Of a stretch of 64,000 bases of DNA, positions 1,953 to 9,263 are shown piece by piece. The notes beneath the pieces are model-generated. The model saw nothing but the letters and a program-made list of their open reading frames with translations. It had not been told where the DNA came from and did not search any database. Location: contig JAHUUK010000003.1 in NCBI GenBank assembly GCA_019218375.1, positions 62,001 through 126,000 on the forward strand, in the 5' to 3' direction. A program made the position numbers and the translations under genes. This stretch comes from Dermabacteraceae bacterium TAE3-ERU5 (GTDB lineage: Bacteria; Actinomycetota; Actinomycetes; Actinomycetales; Dermabacteraceae). Position 1 is the first letter of the stretch; each line of letters opens with the position of its first letter.

Positions 1953-2657
1953 ATGGCTAACCCGGCATCCGTATCCGCGATCTTCGAGAACTATTTGAAA
2001 GTTATCTGGAGCATCAACGAATGGGGCGATGCTGAGGCGTCGGCAAAAATACTTGCTGAACGGCTCGGGGTCGCCCCTTCGTCTGTTTCCGAAACGGTTA
2101 AGAAGCTGGCGGCCGCGGGCCTGGTCGTGCACGTTCCCTACCGGGGTGTTTCCCTCACGGAGGAGGGCCGACGAGTAGCGGTAGCAACCGTGCGTCGGCA
2201 CCGGGTGGTGGAAACCTTCCTGGTCGAATACGCAGGCTACGGCTGGGACGAGGTGCACGAGGAAGCCGAGGTGCTGGAACATACCGTTTCTGAGCGGCTT
2301 ATAGACGCCCTCTGGGAACGCCTGGGGCGCCCCCTGGCTGACCCGCACGGAGACCCCATTCCGCTGCCCGACGGGACCCTGCCGGGAGCGCCGGGAACGG
2401 GTGAAACACTGCCGCTAACCGCGCTGCTGGAAGGCGAACGCGGCAGCGTGGTGCAGGTGAGTGACCGCTCCAGCGAAATCCTGCGCCATCTGGAAGATTT
2501 AGGCCTGCTGCCGGGGGCTGAGGTCGAGGTAGGTGCGCAGAGGCCGTTCGCCGGAACTATCAGCCTGCGCCTAAGCGGCGCCGACGCACCAGGGCAGGGG
2601 CGCGAGGTCGAAGTGGGCCGGGTGGCGGCCGAAGCCGTGCGGGTTAGCAGGCTCTAA
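1953..2657 (+). CDS. DtxR/MntR-family metal-dependent repressor
   Basis: This 234-residue regulator has an N-terminal winged helix (about residues 1-70, recognition helix near APSSVSETVKKL), a metal-binding dimerisation domain (about 75-140) and a C-terminal FeoA/SH3-like domain (about 150-230), the full three-domain DtxR architecture. Candidate ligands are H83, E87, H102, E106, E109 and H110. The motif E106-x-x-E109-H110 has Glu where iron-sensing DtxR/IdeR have Cys, which resembles Mn-sensing MntR. The residue aligning with DtxR Met10/MntR Asp8 appears to be N13, which is unusual. It closes the metal-importer operon and probably represses it when the metal is replete; the operator would lie upstream of the window. 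Confidence 0.9.
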   Translation: MANPASVSAIFENYLKVIWSINEWGDAEASAKILAERLGVAPSSVSETVKKLAAAGLVVHVPYRGVSLTEEGRRVAVATVRRHRVVETFLVEYAGYGWDEVHEEAEVLEHTVSERLIDALWERLGRPLADPHGDPIPLPDGTLPGAPGTGETLPLTALLEGERGSVVQVSDRSSEILRHLEDLGLLPGAEVEVGAQRPFAGTISLRLSGADAPGQGREVEVGRVAAEAVRVSRL

Positions 2658-2673
2658 CGCGCCGCGAAAACGG

Positions 2674-2736
2674 ACGCCTGGGTGCACTTAACGCTACGAA
2701 AACGGGGTTTTAGCAGCGGTTAGTGCACCCAGGCGT
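2674..2736. repeat. GTGCAC palindromic repeat, locus 1 (single hairpin)
   Basis: Two 22-base arms (2674-2695 and 2715-2736) pair nearly perfectly around the core CCTGGGTGCACT. The 19-base loop holds a smaller stem, AAAAC/GTTTT. It lies 17 bases after the DtxR-type stop and 20 bases before the GH42 stop on the other strand, where a bidirectional terminator would be expected. The same core recurs at 5172-5350 and 6741-6923. Terminator function is inferred. Confidence 0.75.
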
Positions 2737-2755
2737 TAAAAGGCTAAAGGCAGGG

Positions 2756-4921
2756 CTAAGGGCGACGGAAAATGCCGCTTGCTCCCGCGGCCAGGCGCAC
2801 CGGGTCGGGCCAGCCCGCCGGGGTCACCTCGGCCGCGTTAGGCGTGTGGTTAATCAGCACCGCCCATTCGCTGCCGTCCTCGCCCAGGCGCGGCAGCACC
2901 TCCACACCCTCCGGGTAATCGGGCAGGACGATGCCTGCTTCGGCGTAAACGTCGGCCATGAGCGGGGCCAGGTCTGCGGGGGCGAGCACGCACCCCACAT
3001 GCCAGGCCGTGCCCGCACCGAAACCATTCCGCACCACGGCCGCGCCGCCCGGCACCGGGCCGTCCGTGAACTCGGCCAGCACCTCGCCGGTGGTGACGCG
3101 CAAATCGTCGCACCAGATCGGGGAGCGCGCGGCAGTACCGGCAGCGTCCCCGGAAACCCAGTCAAGCCCCGCGTCGGCCCCCTCCGGCAGCGGGCAGAAC
3201 TCCTCTACGCTCACCCCGCAAACGTCGGCCAGGGCCGCGTTCAGGCCGCCCGGCCGCACCGTGTCGTTGCCGTCCACGATGCCGCAGAACGGGCCGAGAA
3301 CCAGCTTGCCGCCGCCCTCCACGTAAGCGCGCAGGTTTGCCGCCGCCGCGTCCGTGAGCAGGTACGACGACGGTGCCAACACCAGGTCATAGCCGGAAAG
3401 ATCGAACTCGGGATGGGCGAAGTCCACGCCGACGTGATCGCGCCAAAGCCGCTCGTACCAGGCGCGGATCTGTTCCCTGAACCCCAGGTCTACGGTGGGC
3501 CGCCACGGCAGGTGCTGCGCCCACAGCGATTCGTAATCCCACAGGATCGCCACCCGGTTACGTACCCCGCTGCCCGCAGCGTCGGCCGCGTCCGACAGCG
3601 CACTGCCGAGCGCGCACACCTCGCTAAACACGCGCGAATCGCGGCCCGCGTGCGGCACCATCGCGGAATGGAACTTCTCCGCCCCGAAGCGGGAGGCCCG
3701 CCACTGGAAGAACATGATCCCGTCAGCGCCCCGGCCGAAGTGCGAGAGCGAGTTGCGGGCCATCTCTCCTGGTGTTTTGGCCACGTTGCGGGGCCGCCAG
3801 TTCACGCCCGACGTGGAATGTTCCAGCAGGATCCACGGTCCGCCGTCTCCCAGGCTGCGGGTCAGATCTGCCGCCATCGCCAGCTCGATGTGCCGGGACG
3901 GGTCCTCCGGCAGCAGATAGTGGTCGTTGGTGGAGACGTCCACCTCGCGGCCCCAGCGCCACAGATCGCTCGTGTCGCAGTTGTGCGCCATGAAGTTCGT
4001 GGTGATCGGCAGGTTCGGCGAGTATTCGCGCAGAATGTCGCGTTCGTGAATGAAGCAGCGCAGCTGCGCGTCGGAACTGAACCGCTTCCAGTCCAGCTGC
4101 AGCGCCGGATTCGGTTCGGTGCCCGTGACGAGCGGCGGAATGATCTCCTCCCAATCGCCGTAGATCTGGCCCCAGAACGTCGTGCCCCAGGCGGTATTCA
4201 GCGCCTCCAGGGTGCCGTAGCGGGCCTGTAGCCAGGAGCGGAAGTCGGCCTGCGCGTAATCGCTGAAGCTCTCCGTGATTGGCGCGCCGTATTCGTTGTG
4301 CACGTGCCACATCGCCACCGCCGGGTGCGCGCCGTAGCGCTCGCCGAGCGCATGCGTGATGCGGGCGGTCGCCTCCCGGTATTCGGGGGAGGACGGGCAG
4401 GGGATACCGCGCGAGCCGTGGCTGACCGGAGTGCCGTCGGCCAGCACCGCGCGGGCCTGCGGGTTCGCCCGATAGAACCAGGCGGGCGGCACCACCGTGG
4501 GGGTGGCAAGGTCCACCGAGATACCGTTTTCGTGCAGCAGGTCGAGCAGTTCGTCCAGCCACTCGAAGTCGAACACGCCGGGGCTGGGTTCCAGCCGCGC
4601 CCAGGCAAAGATGCCGACGCTTACCAGGTTCACCCCGGCCTCGCGCATCAGCGCGATGTCCTCCCGCCACACCTCGCGCGGCCACTGCTCCGGGTTGTAG
4701 TCCGCGCCGTAGGCCACGCCGCCCAGCCGCTTAATCAGGGCCGATACGCGCTCGCGCGCCCCGTCCGGGCAGGTGCGCTGGCGCGGGGCTGGCGGGGAGT
4801 CCGGGGCCGGGGCGTCGGCCGCGAGGGTGCCGGTGGTGGGGGCGCCGGTGGCGGGATGTTCGGTAGTGGGGGTCGCTGCGGTGTTCGCGGGATCGAGCGG
4901 ATTGAAGGAAGAAACAGCCAT
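2756..4921 (-). CDS. GH42 beta-galactosidase
   Basis: This 721-residue enzyme matches glycoside hydrolase family 42: GADYNPEQWP near residue 72, the acid/base Glu in WHVHNEYG (E210), the nucleophile Glu in ILLEHSTSGVNW (E367), then the trimerisation and C-terminal domains. It would hydrolyse terminal beta-galactosides; no signal peptide is seen, so it should act in the cytoplasm on imported oligosaccharides. The start at 4921 has a good ribosome site (AGGAG, 5 bases away). The first 60 residues are a Pro/Ala/Thr-rich low-complexity extension that most GH42 enzymes lack. It stands alone, and its 3' end faces the DtxR-type gene across a palindromic repeat. Natural substrates of GH42 vary, so the exact galactoside is unknown. 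Confidence 0.93.
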   Translation of the reverse strand: MAVSSFNPLDPANTAATPTTEHPATGAPTTGTLAADAPAPDSPPAPRQRTCPDGARERVSALIKRLGGVAYGADYNPEQWPREVWREDIALMREAGVNLVSVGIFAWARLEPSPGVFDFEWLDELLDLLHENGISVDLATPTVVPPAWFYRANPQARAVLADGTPVSHGSRGIPCPSSPEYREATARITHALGERYGAHPAVAMWHVHNEYGAPITESFSDYAQADFRSWLQARYGTLEALNTAWGTTFWGQIYGDWEEIIPPLVTGTEPNPALQLDWKRFSSDAQLRCFIHERDILREYSPNLPITTNFMAHNCDTSDLWRWGREVDVSTNDHYLLPEDPSRHIELAMAADLTRSLGDGGPWILLEHSTSGVNWRPRNVAKTPGEMARNSLSHFGRGADGIMFFQWRASRFGAEKFHSAMVPHAGRDSRVFSEVCALGSALSDAADAAGSGVRNRVAILWDYESLWAQHLPWRPTVDLGFREQIRAWYERLWRDHVGVDFAHPEFDLSGYDLVLAPSSYLLTDAAAANLRAYVEGGGKLVLGPFCGIVDGNDTVRPGGLNAALADVCGVSVEEFCPLPEGADAGLDWVSGDAAGTAARSPIWCDDLRVTTGEVLAEFTDGPVPGGAAVVRNGFGAGTAWHVGCVLAPADLAPLMADVYAEAGIVLPDYPEGVEVLPRLGEDGSEWAVLINHTPNAAEVTPAGWPDPVRLAAGASGIFRRP

Positions 4922-5055
4922 TGTTGCTCCTGTGTGCGCCGGTTTTACATGCCGATACCGGTAAGTCTATGAGCGAAAGGCCGGGCTGGGCAGGGGGTGG
5001 CTAATGTTTTGGGCTTTTAGGTGGGGGCGGTAGTGCTTGGCCCGTGTACCCGATG

Positions 5056-5168
5056 CCGTGTTTCCTAGGGGGCGGCGTTTTTAGGGCGTGCGTTTTTAGG
5101 AGGTGGCGTTTTTAAGGCGTGGGGTTTCTTAGAGCGCGCGTTTCCTAGAGCGTGCGTTTCTTAGAGTG
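5056..5168. repeat. Degenerate tandem repeats of 14-17 bases
   Basis: About seven successive units follow the pattern CGTGCGTTTYYTAGAG with small changes in length and sequence: GTTTCCTAGG, GTTTTTAGGG, GTTTTTAGGA, GTTTTTAAGG, GTTTCTTAGAG, GTTTCCTAGAG, GTTTCTTAGAG. They form a direct array with no coding content and lead straight into the GTGCAC repeat block. Function unknown. Confidence 0.65.
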
Positions 5169-5171
5169 TGG

Positions 5172-5350
5172 CCTGACGTTCAGGTGCACTTTCTGCCGTT
5201 TGCCCCGCCGCCCCTTACGTTCGGGTGCACTAAGTGCTGGTAATTCCCATCCCCTAACGTTTGGGTGCACTAAGTGCTGCGAAAAAGCCGTTTAACCGGC
5301 CGAAAGTTCACCCAAACGTAAGGCACAGCCAAAAGTGCACCCAAACGTAA
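5172..5350. repeat. GTGCAC composite repeat, locus 2
   Basis: Three forward copies of a unit like TTACGTTTGGGTGCAC (near 5174, 5215 and 5255) are followed by a linker with GTTTAACCGG and then two inverted copies (ending near 5322 and 5350). The third forward and first inverted copies can form a long hairpin. The same order of units recurs at 6741-6923. It ends 36 bases beyond the stop of the minus-strand phosphotransferase gene, so it may act as a terminator or mRNA 3' element. Confidence 0.78.
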
Positions 5351-5385
5351 TGGCGGGAGTGCGCTACTTAGAGGGCGCGAAGGGA

Positions 5386-6576
5386 TTAGCCGAGCCAGTG
5401 CGTGAGAGTCTGGCGCAGGGTAGCCAGGGGCGAGCCGCCGTTTTCTTTGCTGATGGCGTCGACTTCTGCTTTGGCCGACAGGTGCAGCAGCATGTCGGTA
5501 CGCTCCAGTGCCAGACGGCCCCTGATGCGTGCCATGAGTGCGGCGGTATCTTCCGGCTCATCGTCCGGGCGTAGCCTGCGGCACTCGGCCACGTAAATCC
5601 CTACCAGTTCGGCCAAAGATTCCCACGGCAGCGGCACGTACCAGGGGCCGCCGTGGACAGGCCCTGCCAGGATCGCCAGATCCCGCGCCACATCGTCAAA
5701 CATGGCCCACTCGAAATCGATCAGCGCCGGGATTGGGGCAGATGTTGTTGCGCGTTCGGCCTGGTTGGGAACGGACGCGGAAGAAAGCGTGGTTTCGGCG
5801 GGTGCCGGATCGGGCCAGAGTACGTTGGTGGTGCAGGCGTCCCCGTGGCACAGCGCGATCCGGGGCAGCGGGCCGCGCTCGCCGGTGAAATACGGTTCGC
5901 TGCCCGCGATAACCCGTTTGGCGGTGGAAATTATCGGGGCGTTTTCCTGCACCACCTGCGGGTGCGTGCTTTCCCAATAGGTCAGAGACGCGGCGAACGC
6001 GGCAGCCAGGCTATACGGCTGGCGCTCCGGTGCCGGGGGTGCGCCGATGGCTGCGTCGGCCCCACCGCGCGGCGCGCCGCTCACCCGGTGCAGCGCGGCC
6101 AGCATGCGCATGTAGGCGGTGAGCATTTCCCGGTTCCAGCTTTGCGGTGGCAGCACGCGGCCGGGCACGTAGTCCAGGAGTAGGTAGGGGAGTCCGATCT
6201 CGGATGTGGCCGACGTTTCCCGGTACTCGTGCAGGGCGGGCGCGCCCTTGCCGTCTAGCAGTTTCAGGGCGGCGGCCTCTGCGGTGAGTGGGCAGCGGCC
6301 CTCCCCGGCTTGCACGCGCAGCACCTGCCGGGTGGGGCGGTTTCCGGGAGAGGGGCTAGCGCTGGGGTAGGGGGCTCGCGCGGTGGTCGTTTGGTTATTT
6401 GGTTGATTGGTTGTTTGGTTTCGGGGCGTGGGTGCCAGCAGCCAGGCCGCGAATGCTTCGCCCGCCCCTAGCAGGCTGGGGGCCGTGCCCGGGAATGCGG
6501 CCGCGATGGTGCGGGCGAACTCGGGCGAGGTGGGCGGCGGCGTTACGGTGCGGGAGGGCTGCGTGTGGGGATTCAT
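5386..6576 (-). CDS. APH/choline-kinase-fold phosphotransferase
   Basis: This 396-residue protein has the catalytic loop CHGDACTTN (D246, N251) and a metal-binding DFEW (D287), the two hallmarks of the aminoglycoside phosphotransferase/choline kinase fold. It therefore probably phosphorylates a small hydroxylated molecule with ATP. The acceptor (amino alcohol, sugar, homoserine or antibiotic) cannot be read from the sequence. The start at 6576 has a strong ribosome site (AGGAGG). Residues 50-80 are a low-complexity insert rich in Asn, Gln and Thr, encoded by an octamer repeat (6391-6422). The gene stands alone and is bracketed by two copies of the GTGCAC composite repeat, which is suggestive of a mobile or duplicated segment. 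Confidence 0.82.
   Translation of the reverse strand: MNPHTQPSRTVTPPPTSPEFARTIAAAFPGTAPSLLGAGEAFAAWLLAPTPRNQTTNQPNNQTTTARAPYPSASPSPGNRPTRQVLRVQAGEGRCPLTAEAAALKLLDGKGAPALHEYRETSATSEIGLPYLLLDYVPGRVLPPQSWNREMLTAYMRMLAALHRVSGAPRGGADAAIGAPPAPERQPYSLAAAFAASLTYWESTHPQVVQENAPIISTAKRVIAGSEPYFTGERGPLPRIALCHGDACTTNVLWPDPAPAETTLSSASVPNQAERATTSAPIPALIDFEWAMFDDVARDLAILAGPVHGGPWYVPLPWESLAELVGIYVAECRRLRPDDEPEDTAALMARIRGRLALERTDMLLHLSAKAEVDAISKENGGSPLATLRQTLTHWLG
6391..6422. repeat. Four in-frame 8-base repeats inside the phosphotransferase gene
   Basis: Four consecutive octamers share TTGGTT and differ in the last two bases (AT, GA, GT, TC). They encode the Asn/Gln/Thr-rich segment of the phosphotransferase. 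Because 8 is not a multiple of 3, gain or loss of one unit would shift the frame. Confidence 0.75.
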
Positions 6577-6955
6577 TGCGGCCTCCTGGTGGTGGATGGT
6601 TGTGCGCTGGGCGGCTTGGCGGGATTAGGGCTGGAGGTTTTGGGGTGGTCCAGTTAGAGCGAGGTGATCTGGAGGGTGTGGGACGGATAGACAGGGCGCA
6701 GGTGCTGATTTATGGGACTAGTGGGGTGTTGGCGGCCGGAGACGTAACGTTCGGGTGCAGTTTTGGTTGTTTCGCCTCGTGTTCCTTAACGATCGCGTGC
6801 ACTTTCTGCTGTTTTGCCCCACCCCCTAACGCCTGGGTGCACTAACTGCTGCGAAAACTGGGTTTAACCGGCAGAAAGTGCACCTGAACGTAAGGGCCAA
6901 CCAAAAGTGCACCCAAACGTAACGAGGTGTTGGGACTCCTGGGGCTGCCCTCCGG
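6577..6955. other. 379-base intergenic region with repeat locus
   Basis: No gene is seen between the phosphotransferase start and the stop of the lysine-rich protein gene. The half next to 6577 should hold the phosphotransferase promoter; no clear promoter elements were recognised. The rest is the GTGCAC composite repeat at 6741-6923. Confidence 0.65.
6741..6923. repeat. GTGCAC composite repeat, locus 3
   Basis: Same architecture as locus 2: forward units near 6743, 6786 and 6826, then the linker GGGTTTAACCGG, then two inverted units near 6870-6893 and 6903-6923. The third forward unit (about 6827-6852) pairs with the first inverted unit (about 6868-6893). It ends 33 bases beyond the stop of the minus-strand gene at 6956, again at an operon 3' end. 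Confidence 0.78.
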
Positions 6956-7858
6956 TTAGGGTTCCGGCTGGGGCGGGTAGACGATGGTGACCATCTTGTG
7001 CAGCGCCTTGAACAGCTTTTTGCTGGGCACCAGGTATTCGATTTTCATGGCCCCGCTCAGGCGCGGCTGGGTGGAGCTCTTCGCCTTCTTGCCCTTCTTC
7101 TTTTTGCCTTTCCCTTTGGCTTTTTTGCCGGTCTTTTCTGGCTGGCCGACGCTACCGGTGGCGGTTTCCGAGGTGAGGGCAAGCAGGGAGTCGGCGTCGT
7201 GGCCGATGGTTTCGAGCATGGCCCGCAGCGCGGCGTCGAGGCGCGCGGCCTCTGCCGAATCGAACGCAGGGTTTTCTGCGGTAGTCGGTGTCGGGGAAGC
7301 GTCTACCTGGGGGGCCGCTGCCGGAGCGTTGCCGGTGCCGGGTTGGGTCTGTTGCGCAGTGGTTTCAGGGGTGGCATTTTCGGAATCGTCGGCCTGTTTG
7401 CCGTCCACCAGGCGCAGCGTTTCGGCGGTTTTGGCGACCGACGCACTGAGCCGCTTCTTCTTTTTCTTACCGGGCTTCTTGGCTTCTTTTTCTTTGGCCT
7501 TTTCCGTTACCGGGACAGCTGTGATCTGTTTCGGGTCCAGGTAGGCGGTGACGTGCAGGTTTTTGCCGCGCGAGACGTCCTCGTCGCTGCCAGGCCTACG
7601 GATCTGCAGTTTCAGGCCGACACCGGCCGGGTCCAGGTAGAGCGGTACGTTGGGGCCGCCCCGGTAGATCGCGCCCATTGCCGCGAGGAGGTTCTGGGTG
7701 AGGTGCTCCCGCTCCACCCGGAACTCGTGCACCAGGGTGGCGTGCGGCATGGTGAGCACCTGCTCCCCGACGACGCTAGAGGCGGTAACCTCGCGCAGCA
7801 CCAGGGCGGTGCTTACGGCCCCGGACACGGGTGGCCAGGAAAGTTTATGTATTTTCAC
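6956..7858 (-). CDS. Lysine-rich protein of unknown function
   Basis: I do not recognise this 300-residue protein. It has a folded-looking N-terminal part (1-112, alternating hydrophobic strands, ending LHVTAYLDPKQITAV), a first lysine tract (about 118-136), a low-complexity Ala/Pro/Thr linker, a short helical part (about 198-230), a second lysine tract (about 242-260) and a final segment, MKIEYLVPSKKLFKALHKMV. The lysine tracts suggest binding to nucleic acid or acidic membrane, but that is only inference. The GTG start has a good ribosome site (AAGGA) and lies 14 bases inside the end of the AT-rich membrane-protein gene, so the two are probably translated together. It is the last gene of a four-gene operon. 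Confidence 0.7.
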   Translation of the reverse strand: MKIHKLSWPPVSGAVSTALVLREVTASSVVGEQVLTMPHATLVHEFRVEREHLTQNLLAAMGAIYRGGPNVPLYLDPAGVGLKLQIRRPGSDEDVSRGKNLHVTAYLDPKQITAVPVTEKAKEKEAKKPGKKKKKRLSASVAKTAETLRLVDGKQADDSENATPETTAQQTQPGTGNAPAAAPQVDASPTPTTAENPAFDSAEAARLDAALRAMLETIGHDADSLLALTSETATGSVGQPEKTGKKAKGKGKKKKGKKAKSSTQPRLSGAMKIEYLVPSKKLFKALHKMVTIVYPPQPEP

Positions 7859-9263
7859 TATATTCCTTTTTAAAAGTGGGGGTTCCCCAATCTGAGTAAC
7901 ATATCTCTATGCTGTTTCTAATTCTTAGCATTTCTTTTCTATCCTTGCGCGCCTCATCTTTTAGGGAGTGGAAATTGCGGGCAAAGGTCTCACGCAGTTC
8001 CGGATGCAGGTATCTCGGGGGAGATGCGACTGATAATTTAATAGAGTTGATAGAGTTGCATAGTTTTATGCGAGACAGAATATAAAATAGTGCGGGAGGC
8101 AGTAAGAGAGCCAGAAATATTCGTACGGTAACCCAAAAACTTTGCATCTCGAGTGGGAGAAGTAGGGTTATATAAAAGTCATATGCGGCATATAGGATCA
8201 AGGCGATGAGTTCGATCGTCCAGTATATCCTGGGGGTCGTTGTTGCGGGTAGCACGTGGTATATTAGGTGAACTAACATGTTTAGTTCAATCACCAGGAG
8301 CACCACGGTCACTGCTAGTTGAAATATCGAGATAGACAAACTCCTGATCTCTTTGTCGGACGCTTCTATACCCTCTAGGGTGAGGTGAATTACTAGCATG
8401 GAAATAAATAAAAATAGTGCAGACTGGGTAATGTATACCAAAAGCCTTAGTGCTAATCGTATTAATTTGCGTATGAGATTTATTGCTCGCATGGAGTATC
8501 CAGAACGCCAGTCAAGGCTGTTAAGAAGGTGGCTAAGGGCTACTAGGTCCTGATGCATGAGATTAAGGGTCTCGGGTAAGGCTGACATAATCTTTTTATG
8601 TGCTGATATAGGCTGGATTATTTTTAATTGGGAACGCAGTAGGGATAGCCTGGCTTCGGTTTTTGACACTCGCCTATTTATTTCATCGATGCTTCCAGTC
8701 ACCCTATTATCTAGATAGTCGTTTAGCGCCTTTCTGGCGTAGTAGATTAAAGAGAATTGCAATATTGAAAACAGCGTTAGGGCGAAGGATGGGGCATTTT
8801 CTTTCTTGTACCCCATCCACTCGGGCGTGCTTTTAGGACAATTTTGGCTCAGGGATAGAATTAGGGAGGGTGGGTCGCAGTCTTTTAGGAGGGTCGACAC
8901 TACAAATACCAATGAGGTAAGGAATGTTGATAGGCCTACACAAACTACCACTATAGTTAGCAGGAAACGAGTTCGTCTAAAAAATGTAATAAAGCCTGTG
9001 GAGTTCGGGTGCAATCCTGCAGCTGCTACTGGCAGGATTGCAAAGGTTGCAAATATGGAGAAGACTCCTGCGTACCGCAGAGTGTCGTACAGTAAATATA
9101 TGTAAGGAAATATATTTAGGTCGGATATATTTGCGAGGTTAGTAGAATCTGTTATCTGAGAGATTTTGTCTTTAGGTAGAAAAAGTAAAATGGGGGATAA
9201 GAGTGCCACAAATATCAAAATATCTTTTGATGAAGAGGTTGTTTTTTCGTATTTATAGCTCAT
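7845..9263 (-). CDS. AT-rich multi-spanning membrane protein of unknown function
   Basis: This 472-residue protein has about eight hydrophobic membrane segments (for example ILIFVALLSPILLFL near residue 15, and several between 280 and 400), separated by a cytoplasmic coiled-coil-like stretch (about 185-230, SIDEINRRVSKTEARL onward) and closed by a charged C-terminal tail. I recognise no family or catalytic motif. Its DNA is visibly AT-richer than all its neighbours and uses many A/T-ending codons, which points to recent acquisition. Yet it overlaps the upstream hydrolase gene by 4 bases (ATGA) and the downstream gene by 14 bases, so it now sits inside a coupled operon. A sensor, channel or defence-related membrane effector are all possible. 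Confidence 0.75.
   Translation of the reverse strand: MSYKYEKTTSSSKDILIFVALLSPILLFLPKDKISQITDSTNLANISDLNIFPYIYLLYDTLRYAGVFSIFATFAILPVAAAGLHPNSTGFITFFRRTRFLLTIVVVCVGLSTFLTSLVFVVSTLLKDCDPPSLILSLSQNCPKSTPEWMGYKKENAPSFALTLFSILQFSLIYYARKALNDYLDNRVTGSIDEINRRVSKTEARLSLLRSQLKIIQPISAHKKIMSALPETLNLMHQDLVALSHLLNSLDWRSGYSMRAINLIRKLIRLALRLLVYITQSALFLFISMLVIHLTLEGIEASDKEIRSLSISIFQLAVTVVLLVIELNMLVHLIYHVLPATTTPRIYWTIELIALILYAAYDFYITLLLPLEMQSFWVTVRIFLALLLPPALFYILSRIKLCNSINSIKLSVASPPRYLHPELRETFARNFHSLKDEARKDRKEMLRIRNSIEICYSDWGTPTFKKEYSENT

Follow-up and report, generated by a model that had tools for sequence, protein, structure and literature searches.

The DNA examined in the present study is a 64-kb stretch (the window) on contig C5 of the 1.92-Mb genome of the Dermabacteraceae bacterium TAE3-ERU5. 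A reading made from the letters of this DNA (the sequence-only reading) had described three copies of an intergenic repeat with a GTGCAC core, and a direct check of the window found all three where they had been placed. In both composite copies, the order of three forward units, a linker containing GTTTAACCGG, and two inverted units was also confirmed. The features are as follows, forward units being named A and inverted units B.

2674-2736, no strand: two-unit (single hairpin) form, forward unit 2674-2687 and reverse unit 2723-2736, 49 bp from start to start
5176-5189, plus strand: element 2, extra A-type unit A0, 41 bp before A1
5217-5230, plus strand: element 2, unit A1, 40 bp before A2
5257-5270, plus strand: element 2, unit A2
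5271-5305, no strand: element 2, core linker of 35 bp
5306-5319, minus strand: element 2, inverted unit B2, 49 bp after the start of A2
5335-5348, minus strand: element 2, inverted unit B1, 29 bp after the start of B2
6747-6760, plus strand: element 3, extra A-type unit A0, 42 bp before A1
6789-6802, plus strand: element 3, unit A1, 40 bp before A2
6829-6842, plus strand: element 3, unit A2
6843-6877, no strand: element 3, core linker of 35 bp
6878-6891, minus strand: element 3, inverted unit B2
6907-6920, minus strand: element 3, inverted unit B1

Both arms of the hairpin at 2674-2736 carry the variant ACGCCTGGGTGCAC. The short distances to neighbouring genes that had been claimed for the window hold, running from a stop that ends at 2657 to 2674, from 5350 to 5386, and from 6923 to 6956. 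At up to three mismatches, the window holds 29 unit matches against 13.2 expected in shuffled sequences, with none of 100 shuffles reaching 29; the 29 include each of the 12 units that make up the three elements, and four of the 12 are exact. The composites are canonical two-plus-two elements, as described below, with one extra A unit. Degenerate tandem repeats of the GTTTCTTAGAGCGTGC type abut element 2 at 5060-5166, and were not seen in the matching stretch of TAE3-ERU27, a congeneric second species.

Architecture and range of the repeat

The repeating unit is an asymmetric motif of approximately 16 bp, TnACGTTTGGGTGCACT. Four copies of it, in pairs facing inward, make up a canonical element of approximately 136 bp, in which A1, A2, B2', and B1' follow one another at start-to-start distances of 40, 49, and 29 bp, and in which the linkers of the two sides differ in length (A 26, B 15). 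The boundaries read TnACG ... CGTnA, with information falling sharply outside them, and the inverted units can form a stem of approximately 15 bp. The set analysed comprised 89 elements, 48 from TAE3-ERU5 and 41 from TAE3-ERU27, for which loci were extracted around unit matches. The centre spacing, from A2 to B2', was 49 bp in 86 of them and 50, 79, and 79 bp in the remaining three. Neighbours on the same strand were separated by 29 bp (75 cases), 28 (4), 40 (62), 39 (13), 41 (7), or 42-43 (6), and rarely by 53, 58, or 83 (one each). The number of units per element ranged between 2 and 6, and was mostly 4 (26/48 in TAE3-ERU5 and 29/41 in TAE3-ERU27).

The three elements without the exact 49-bp core were omitted from the oriented set, leaving 86, and canonical statistics were obtained from 51 of 79 oriented elements. 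An ungapped alignment of 49 of these 51, from which L081:4644-4783 and L105:4688-4827 had been removed by hand, showed a mean column identity of 84%. Two TAE3-ERU5 elements at contig ends (C2:7672 and C11:389) correspond to the same TAE3-ERU27 element and may represent one element counted twice.

Units were counted with the pattern WACGTTYGGGTGCA, allowing one mismatch at most and using the reversed pattern as a control. TAE3-ERU5 contained 145 units against one control match, and 141 of the 145 lay in or at the 48 intergenic elements, the other four being two singles and the two units of a half-element. When the units in 70 loci were scored by a matrix, 353 were obtained against 2 in shuffled sequence. 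The sequence-only reading had reckoned with the case that the three window copies might be the only ones in the genome, with none in relatives; a search of the whole genome and of relatives instead revealed dozens of elements in both species, namely 48 in TAE3-ERU5 and at least 42 in TAE3-ERU27 (the 41 counted elements and a two-unit copy in L133).

Among 58 genomes, unit matches numbered 152 and 107 in the two members of the genus and between 0 and 20 in the other 56; the relative with 20 matches (G047, 3 in the control) had scattered singles among the matches listed. A model built on the full-length element, used with filters that lose weak matches, matched 2 of 47 genomes of the family, both in the genus, and, under the same filters, 1 of 297 sampled genomes of the order, which was the window's own. 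Within the genomes searched, the element is confined to two genomes of one genus. A distant blastn search with window positions 6725-6940 gave no match in plasmid and phage collections, and the unit, its complement, and the core stretch did not occur in the literature searched, in which no description of the element was found.

The exact 18-base core pattern was present in 19 stretches across the genome collection, 9 from TAE3-ERU27 and 10 from Thiobacillus or Desulfoprunum records. The repeat of these metagenome-assembled genomes, with the core GGGTGCAC, also has GGGTGCACT...AGTGCACCC separated by a gap of 33 bases, but differs from the present element in its GTAG...CTAC flanks and internal sequence, and we take it to be a coincidental match to a classical REP. 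In these Thiobacillus and Desulfoprunum genomes (loci L039, L041-L043, L045, L046, L048, L050, L051, and L055), the core of the GTAG-tagged repeat resembles GGGTGCACTCCGTGCACC, and some of the genomes hold several copies. A viral contig matching the unit pattern, IMGVR_UViG_3300010397_001068, also proved to carry a different repeat, consisting of short hairpins AAAGGGTGCA...AGTGCACCCTTT in approximately five repeats at ~5170-5370 (L141), which is unrelated to the element.

Conservation between two species and the question of mobility

Thirty-eight of the 48 TAE3-ERU5 elements occupy the same junction in TAE3-ERU27 (37 ortholog pairs selected by hand and one more), while 10 of the 48 and 4 of the 41 TAE3-ERU27 elements have no paired counterpart. 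Since 10 of 48 are unpaired, no single copy appears to be essential. The three window copies illustrate this range: the hairpin at 2674-2736 is missing at the same junction of TAE3-ERU27, where the intergenic gap is much shorter; the element at 5176-5348 is also missing, its junction being filled by a different small gene; and element 3 has an ortholog at C1:195607-195780 with the same five units and spacings and 170 of 174 identical bases without a gap. At other junctions, an element has been duplicated locally, genes present in one species only lie next to an element or between two of them, or an element appears to have decayed to a remnant in one species (contig C10 in TAE3-ERU5; near oriC in TAE3-ERU27).

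Between orthologs, the centre spacing was unchanged in 35 of 37 pairs, the B spacing in 28 of 31, and the A spacing in 27 of 32. Identity was 0.914 in the elements against 0.85 and 0.83 in the flanks, and gap columns per aligned base amounted to 0.034 against approximately 0.19 in non-coding flanks. The units themselves, compared in 35 of the 37 pairs (21 with A1 and 27 with B1), reached 0.93-0.94, and the A linker 0.806, which is close to the flank level. A linker that is nearly fixed in length and drifts in sequence points to protein geometry. Core identity was 0.813 within TAE3-ERU5, 0.789 within TAE3-ERU27, 0.800 between non-orthologs, and 0.917 between orthologs; paralogs in one genome are thus no more alike than those across genomes, so that there is no homogenisation or concerted evolution to which the conservation of the elements could be attributed.

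Two copies specific to TAE3-ERU5 closely resemble unlinked elements of the same genome: C5:152476 is 92.6% identical to C5:9442 and C8:40910 is 91.9% identical to C5:19185 over the 136 canonical columns. Since these values are approximately at the ortholog level, copying around or after the split of the two species is possible, and the elements may not be a purely frozen set; loss from TAE3-ERU27 would also account for them. A transposable origin in some form is likely because similarity over the whole length between unlinked copies requires a copying process, notwithstanding the absence of Y1_Tnp and rve matches. The present-day state could accordingly be that of a slow or fossil, non-autonomous, MITE-like element with two transposase-binding sites per end, which spread in the ancestor of the genus and is now immobile or almost so. 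Repeated transposase-binding sites are a feature of Tn7-, Mu-, and IS21-type ends, to which the two sites at each end of the element may be likened. Conservation over the whole length, sharp symmetric boundaries, repeated inward-facing sites on both sides, the differences in presence between the species, and the position of several elements next to tRNA or tmRNA genes are all in keeping with this reading.

The idea of a small mobile element, which the sequence-only reading had raised, stood as far as the two species-specific copies and their close unlinked relatives are concerned, but not with respect to a transposase, a target duplication, or a cargo-bearing long copy. The REP-type tyrosine transposase that might have accompanied the repeat was found in neither genome (Y1_Tnp, PF01797, 0/2 genus genomes; the control was positive in 5 of 14 genomes), and rve (PF00665) had no match in either. 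Of 1152 combinations scored for a target duplication in 51 elements, each against 30 shuffles, the best had a z of 4.8 and overlapped the element, and none was convincing; the few empty junctions examined included no clean one. No long parent with these ends was seen among the 145 TAE3-ERU5 units, all of which, except for the half-element and two singles, lie in or at compact elements. Moreover, most copies share their junction across species, the sole TAE3-ERU5 pair above 94% (C8:9004 and 9697, 99.3%) is a local tandem duplication, and no TAE3-ERU27 pair exceeds 91.2%. We consider a mobile element, even a nearly immobile one, to be the main rival of the reading favoured below, albeit a rather unlikely one.

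Another possibility is that the elements are recombination or integration sites at which foreign genes are captured, or between which they are exchanged, by a homologous or site-specific process. Between the two genomes, 14 indels measured 400 bp or more; 11 of them were located at the 40 element junctions counted and 3 at the 168 others (Fisher P = 1e-6 per junction). At C1:315218-316491 of TAE3-ERU27, a low-GC gene (0.46; window 0.64) lies between two three-unit elements where TAE3-ERU5 has one four-unit element, the GC contents of inserts beside elements were 0.48, 0.47, 0.57, 0.59, and 0.61, and a 4.1-kb island breaks an element after A2. Per intergenic base, however, 11 of 14 against a share of 61%, which the inserts themselves inflate, was not significant (P = 0.13), and the same applied to gene-size inserts (7/10, P = 0.40). 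Furthermore, 4 of the 14 events, part of which were inspected, were set apart by hand as a duplication or length change around an element, two of the sites adjoin tmRNA and tRNA-Arg and are insertion-prone anyway, and the breakpoints do not fall at a single fixed position of the element. This reading is improbable in our view.

Regarding the inserts themselves, the low-GC gene (C1:315.7-316.4 kb, L103 4451-5098) appeared glycosyltransferase-like by eye and had no Pfam match. The 4.1-kb island, which is specific to TAE3-ERU5 (C5 ~132.6-135.0 kb, L131 1641-4024), carries ORFs that we named by eye as D12-type DNA methyltransferase-like and ParB-nuclease-like, and is possibly a defence system.

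Placement relative to genes and RNA-level readings

None of the 89 elements overlapped a called gene, genes having been called with a custom codon-score script that left some long gaps uncalled. In TAE3-ERU5, 42 element junctions were divided into 17 convergent, 21 tandem, and 4 divergent, whereas the 71 junctions of 100 bp or more that lack an element comprised 7, 42, and 22, respectively; the corresponding values in TAE3-ERU27 were 16, 19, and 4 of 39 against 5, 39, and 21 of 65. Convergent junctions were enriched in comparison with these element-free junctions (P = 0.0002 and 0.00008, respectively) and with all element-free junctions (P = 0.003 and 0.0006), and divergent junctions were depleted (P = 0.01 and 0.017). 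Junctions with an element are longer (median 454 bp against 98 bp without one in TAE3-ERU5), and the convergent enrichment is, therefore, partly confounded. Within the window beyond 8 kb, the element-free junctions of at least 100 bp were 1 convergent, 6 tandem, and 6 divergent. No orientation bias was noted relative to transcription (11 vs 9 and 12 vs 7) or to the replication arms on C1 of TAE3-ERU27 (5 plus and 5 minus to the left of oriC; 7 plus, 8 minus, and 1 of undecided orientation to the right).

On the same contig, 10 of 26 elements lay no more than 70 kb from oriC, where 4.4 would be expected (P = 0.008, the 70-kb limit having been chosen post hoc), and 8 of 21 remained after collapsing to clusters (P = 0.018); this clustering is suggestive only. 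Sites similar to GTTTCACGTGAAAC, which we take to be the parS motif, form a dense cluster adjoining oriC in both species when two mismatches are allowed, with 13 in L067 2517-3797 (C5 ~36.2-37.5 kb of TAE3-ERU5) and 15 in L129 3458-4642 of TAE3-ERU27. The cluster spans approximately 1.2-1.3 kb beside DnaA boxes in TAE3-ERU27, as in TAE3-ERU5, where a two-unit element lies directly beside it, and no such sites were found in 694 kb of other loci scanned. Concerning tRNA genes, tRNA-Phe is flanked by an inverted pair of elements in both species (C9:40541-41459 in TAE3-ERU5 and C1:451677-452545 in TAE3-ERU27), and the two elements of the pair are unusually alike within each species (93.4% and 91.2%), which hints at local exchange. 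The tRNA-Ala/tRNA-Ile pair of TAE3-ERU5 (C5:18129-19316) is also flanked by elements in an inverted orientation.

A modular terminator had been suggested from the window. The stop distances of 16-36 bp of the window copies, the stem of the inverted units, and the enrichment at convergent junctions agree with it, or more broadly with an element acting at the RNA level as a transcription terminator or a hairpin that stabilises 3' ends. On the A-to-B strand, two of the core positions also show frequent G-U pairs (31 and 27 of 79). Nevertheless, the distance of 17-36 bases beyond a stop did not turn out to be a general rule; the facing stop lay at a median distance of 148 bp, and of the 113 sides measured in both genomes, 18 were within 40 bp. 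A terminator-like GC-rich hairpin with a T run near the stop was detected in 1 of 89 elements by a crude, insensitive scan; the same scan detected 17 of 161 at 3' ends lacking an element and 8 of 92 in the interval from the stop to the element, and thus missed most. The arms do not covary as pairs: the paired share of cells was 87.5%, compared with 87.7% after shuffling, and permutation gave P values of 0.57 and 0.79 in the core helix and 0.73 and 0.90 in the outer one. Although highly conserved positions limit this test, its result speaks against selection for RNA or cruciform pairing. The element is asymmetric and yet without an orientation bias, its linkers are unequal, divergent junctions also carry it (4/42 and 4/39), and an Rfam search of window positions 2000-8000 gave no match. 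A terminator or other RNA function was thus rejected on the basis of stop distance, orientation, covariation, and the terminator scan, and we regard it as very improbable. Still more improbable is a neutral relic, an old REP-like repeat that is functionless today and retained through slow deletion, with which the decayed and unpaired copies would agree, but not the greater identity and fewer gaps of the elements than of their flanks.

A putative platform of four protein sites

We favour, at a probability of approximately 0.4, the reading that the repeat is extragenic and REP/BIME-like, specific to the genus, maintained for the most part by vertical descent, and functional as double-stranded DNA with four putative protein sites. 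Of the options raised from the window, a bound protein is the best supported, through rigid spacing combined with drifting linkers, its binder being putative. Each unit would be the binding site for one dedicated sequence-specific protein, and four bound protomers may assemble on a fixed helical geometry and then fold or bridge the DNA. Measured from one GTGCAC centre to the next, the spacings of 29, 40, and ~41 bp are about one helical turn apart, a phase argument that draws on two spacing classes only. The elements could then be fixed nucleoprotein nodes located between one transcription unit and the next, with a preference for convergent genes, and might absorb supercoiling, insulate neighbours, or bridge chromosome domains. 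Against this interpretation, the conservation over the whole length is also expected from descent of mobile copies, and two copies specific to TAE3-ERU5 have an unlinked relative at 92-93% identity. A more far-reaching version, in which the end pair of a four-site mobile element was domesticated into some fifty fixed nucleoprotein platforms with a dedicated protein and strict helical spacing, ordering the borders of transcription units and admitting foreign genes, is speculative, and we would give it little credence.

The term REP/BIME-like is apt as a description of composite elements that are scattered through the genome outside genes and over-represented at convergent junctions; membership in the described REP superfamilies was rejected since the tests for a GTAG/CGTC tag and a RAYT both failed, the consensus having neither end tag. 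Described families of dispersed extragenic palindromic repeats are mostly from Proteobacteria (PMC3733652), and many are tied to RAYT transposases. The GTAG and CGTC superfamilies share with the present element short, high-copy, extragenic repeats that are often opposed and close and occur at convergent or unidirectional junctions (PMC3733652). In contrast to REPs, a single asymmetric motif of ~16 bp is used here, it takes two units at a distance of 49 bp to form a palindrome, and the two-plus-two architecture has unequal spacing without a tag or a RAYT match. BIME-1 and BIME-2 are also composites of oppositely oriented repeats; the partners described for them are IHF for the inter-REP sequence of BIME-1, gyrase for BIME-2, and Pol I for REPs, and the RIB elements of enterobacteria are located at the 3' ends of transcription units (PMC2817692). 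However, BIMEs alternate the REP orientation, whereas the direct repeats on each side of the present element face the centre, and BIMEs and RIBs are enterobacterial, whereas the present element belongs to Actinomycetota and has a putative binder.

Two further comparisons are instructive. The BOX elements of Streptococcus are modular intergenic repeats with a variable number of internal modules that differ from each other; the modular intergenic build and the variable number of modules are common to both, but the sequence is unrelated, and a single motif is reused here in two spacings. Integron attC sites have RYYYAAC...GTTRRRY core sites and occur in cassette arrays with an integron integrase, in contrast to the present elements, which are scattered and not arrayed.

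Taken together, the repeat constitutes a family found in one actinobacterial genus only, without a RAYT match, the spacing logic of which points to protein assembly rather than to an RNA hairpin. With orthologous copies in two species and a fixed geometry of sites, the function of such repeats becomes directly testable.
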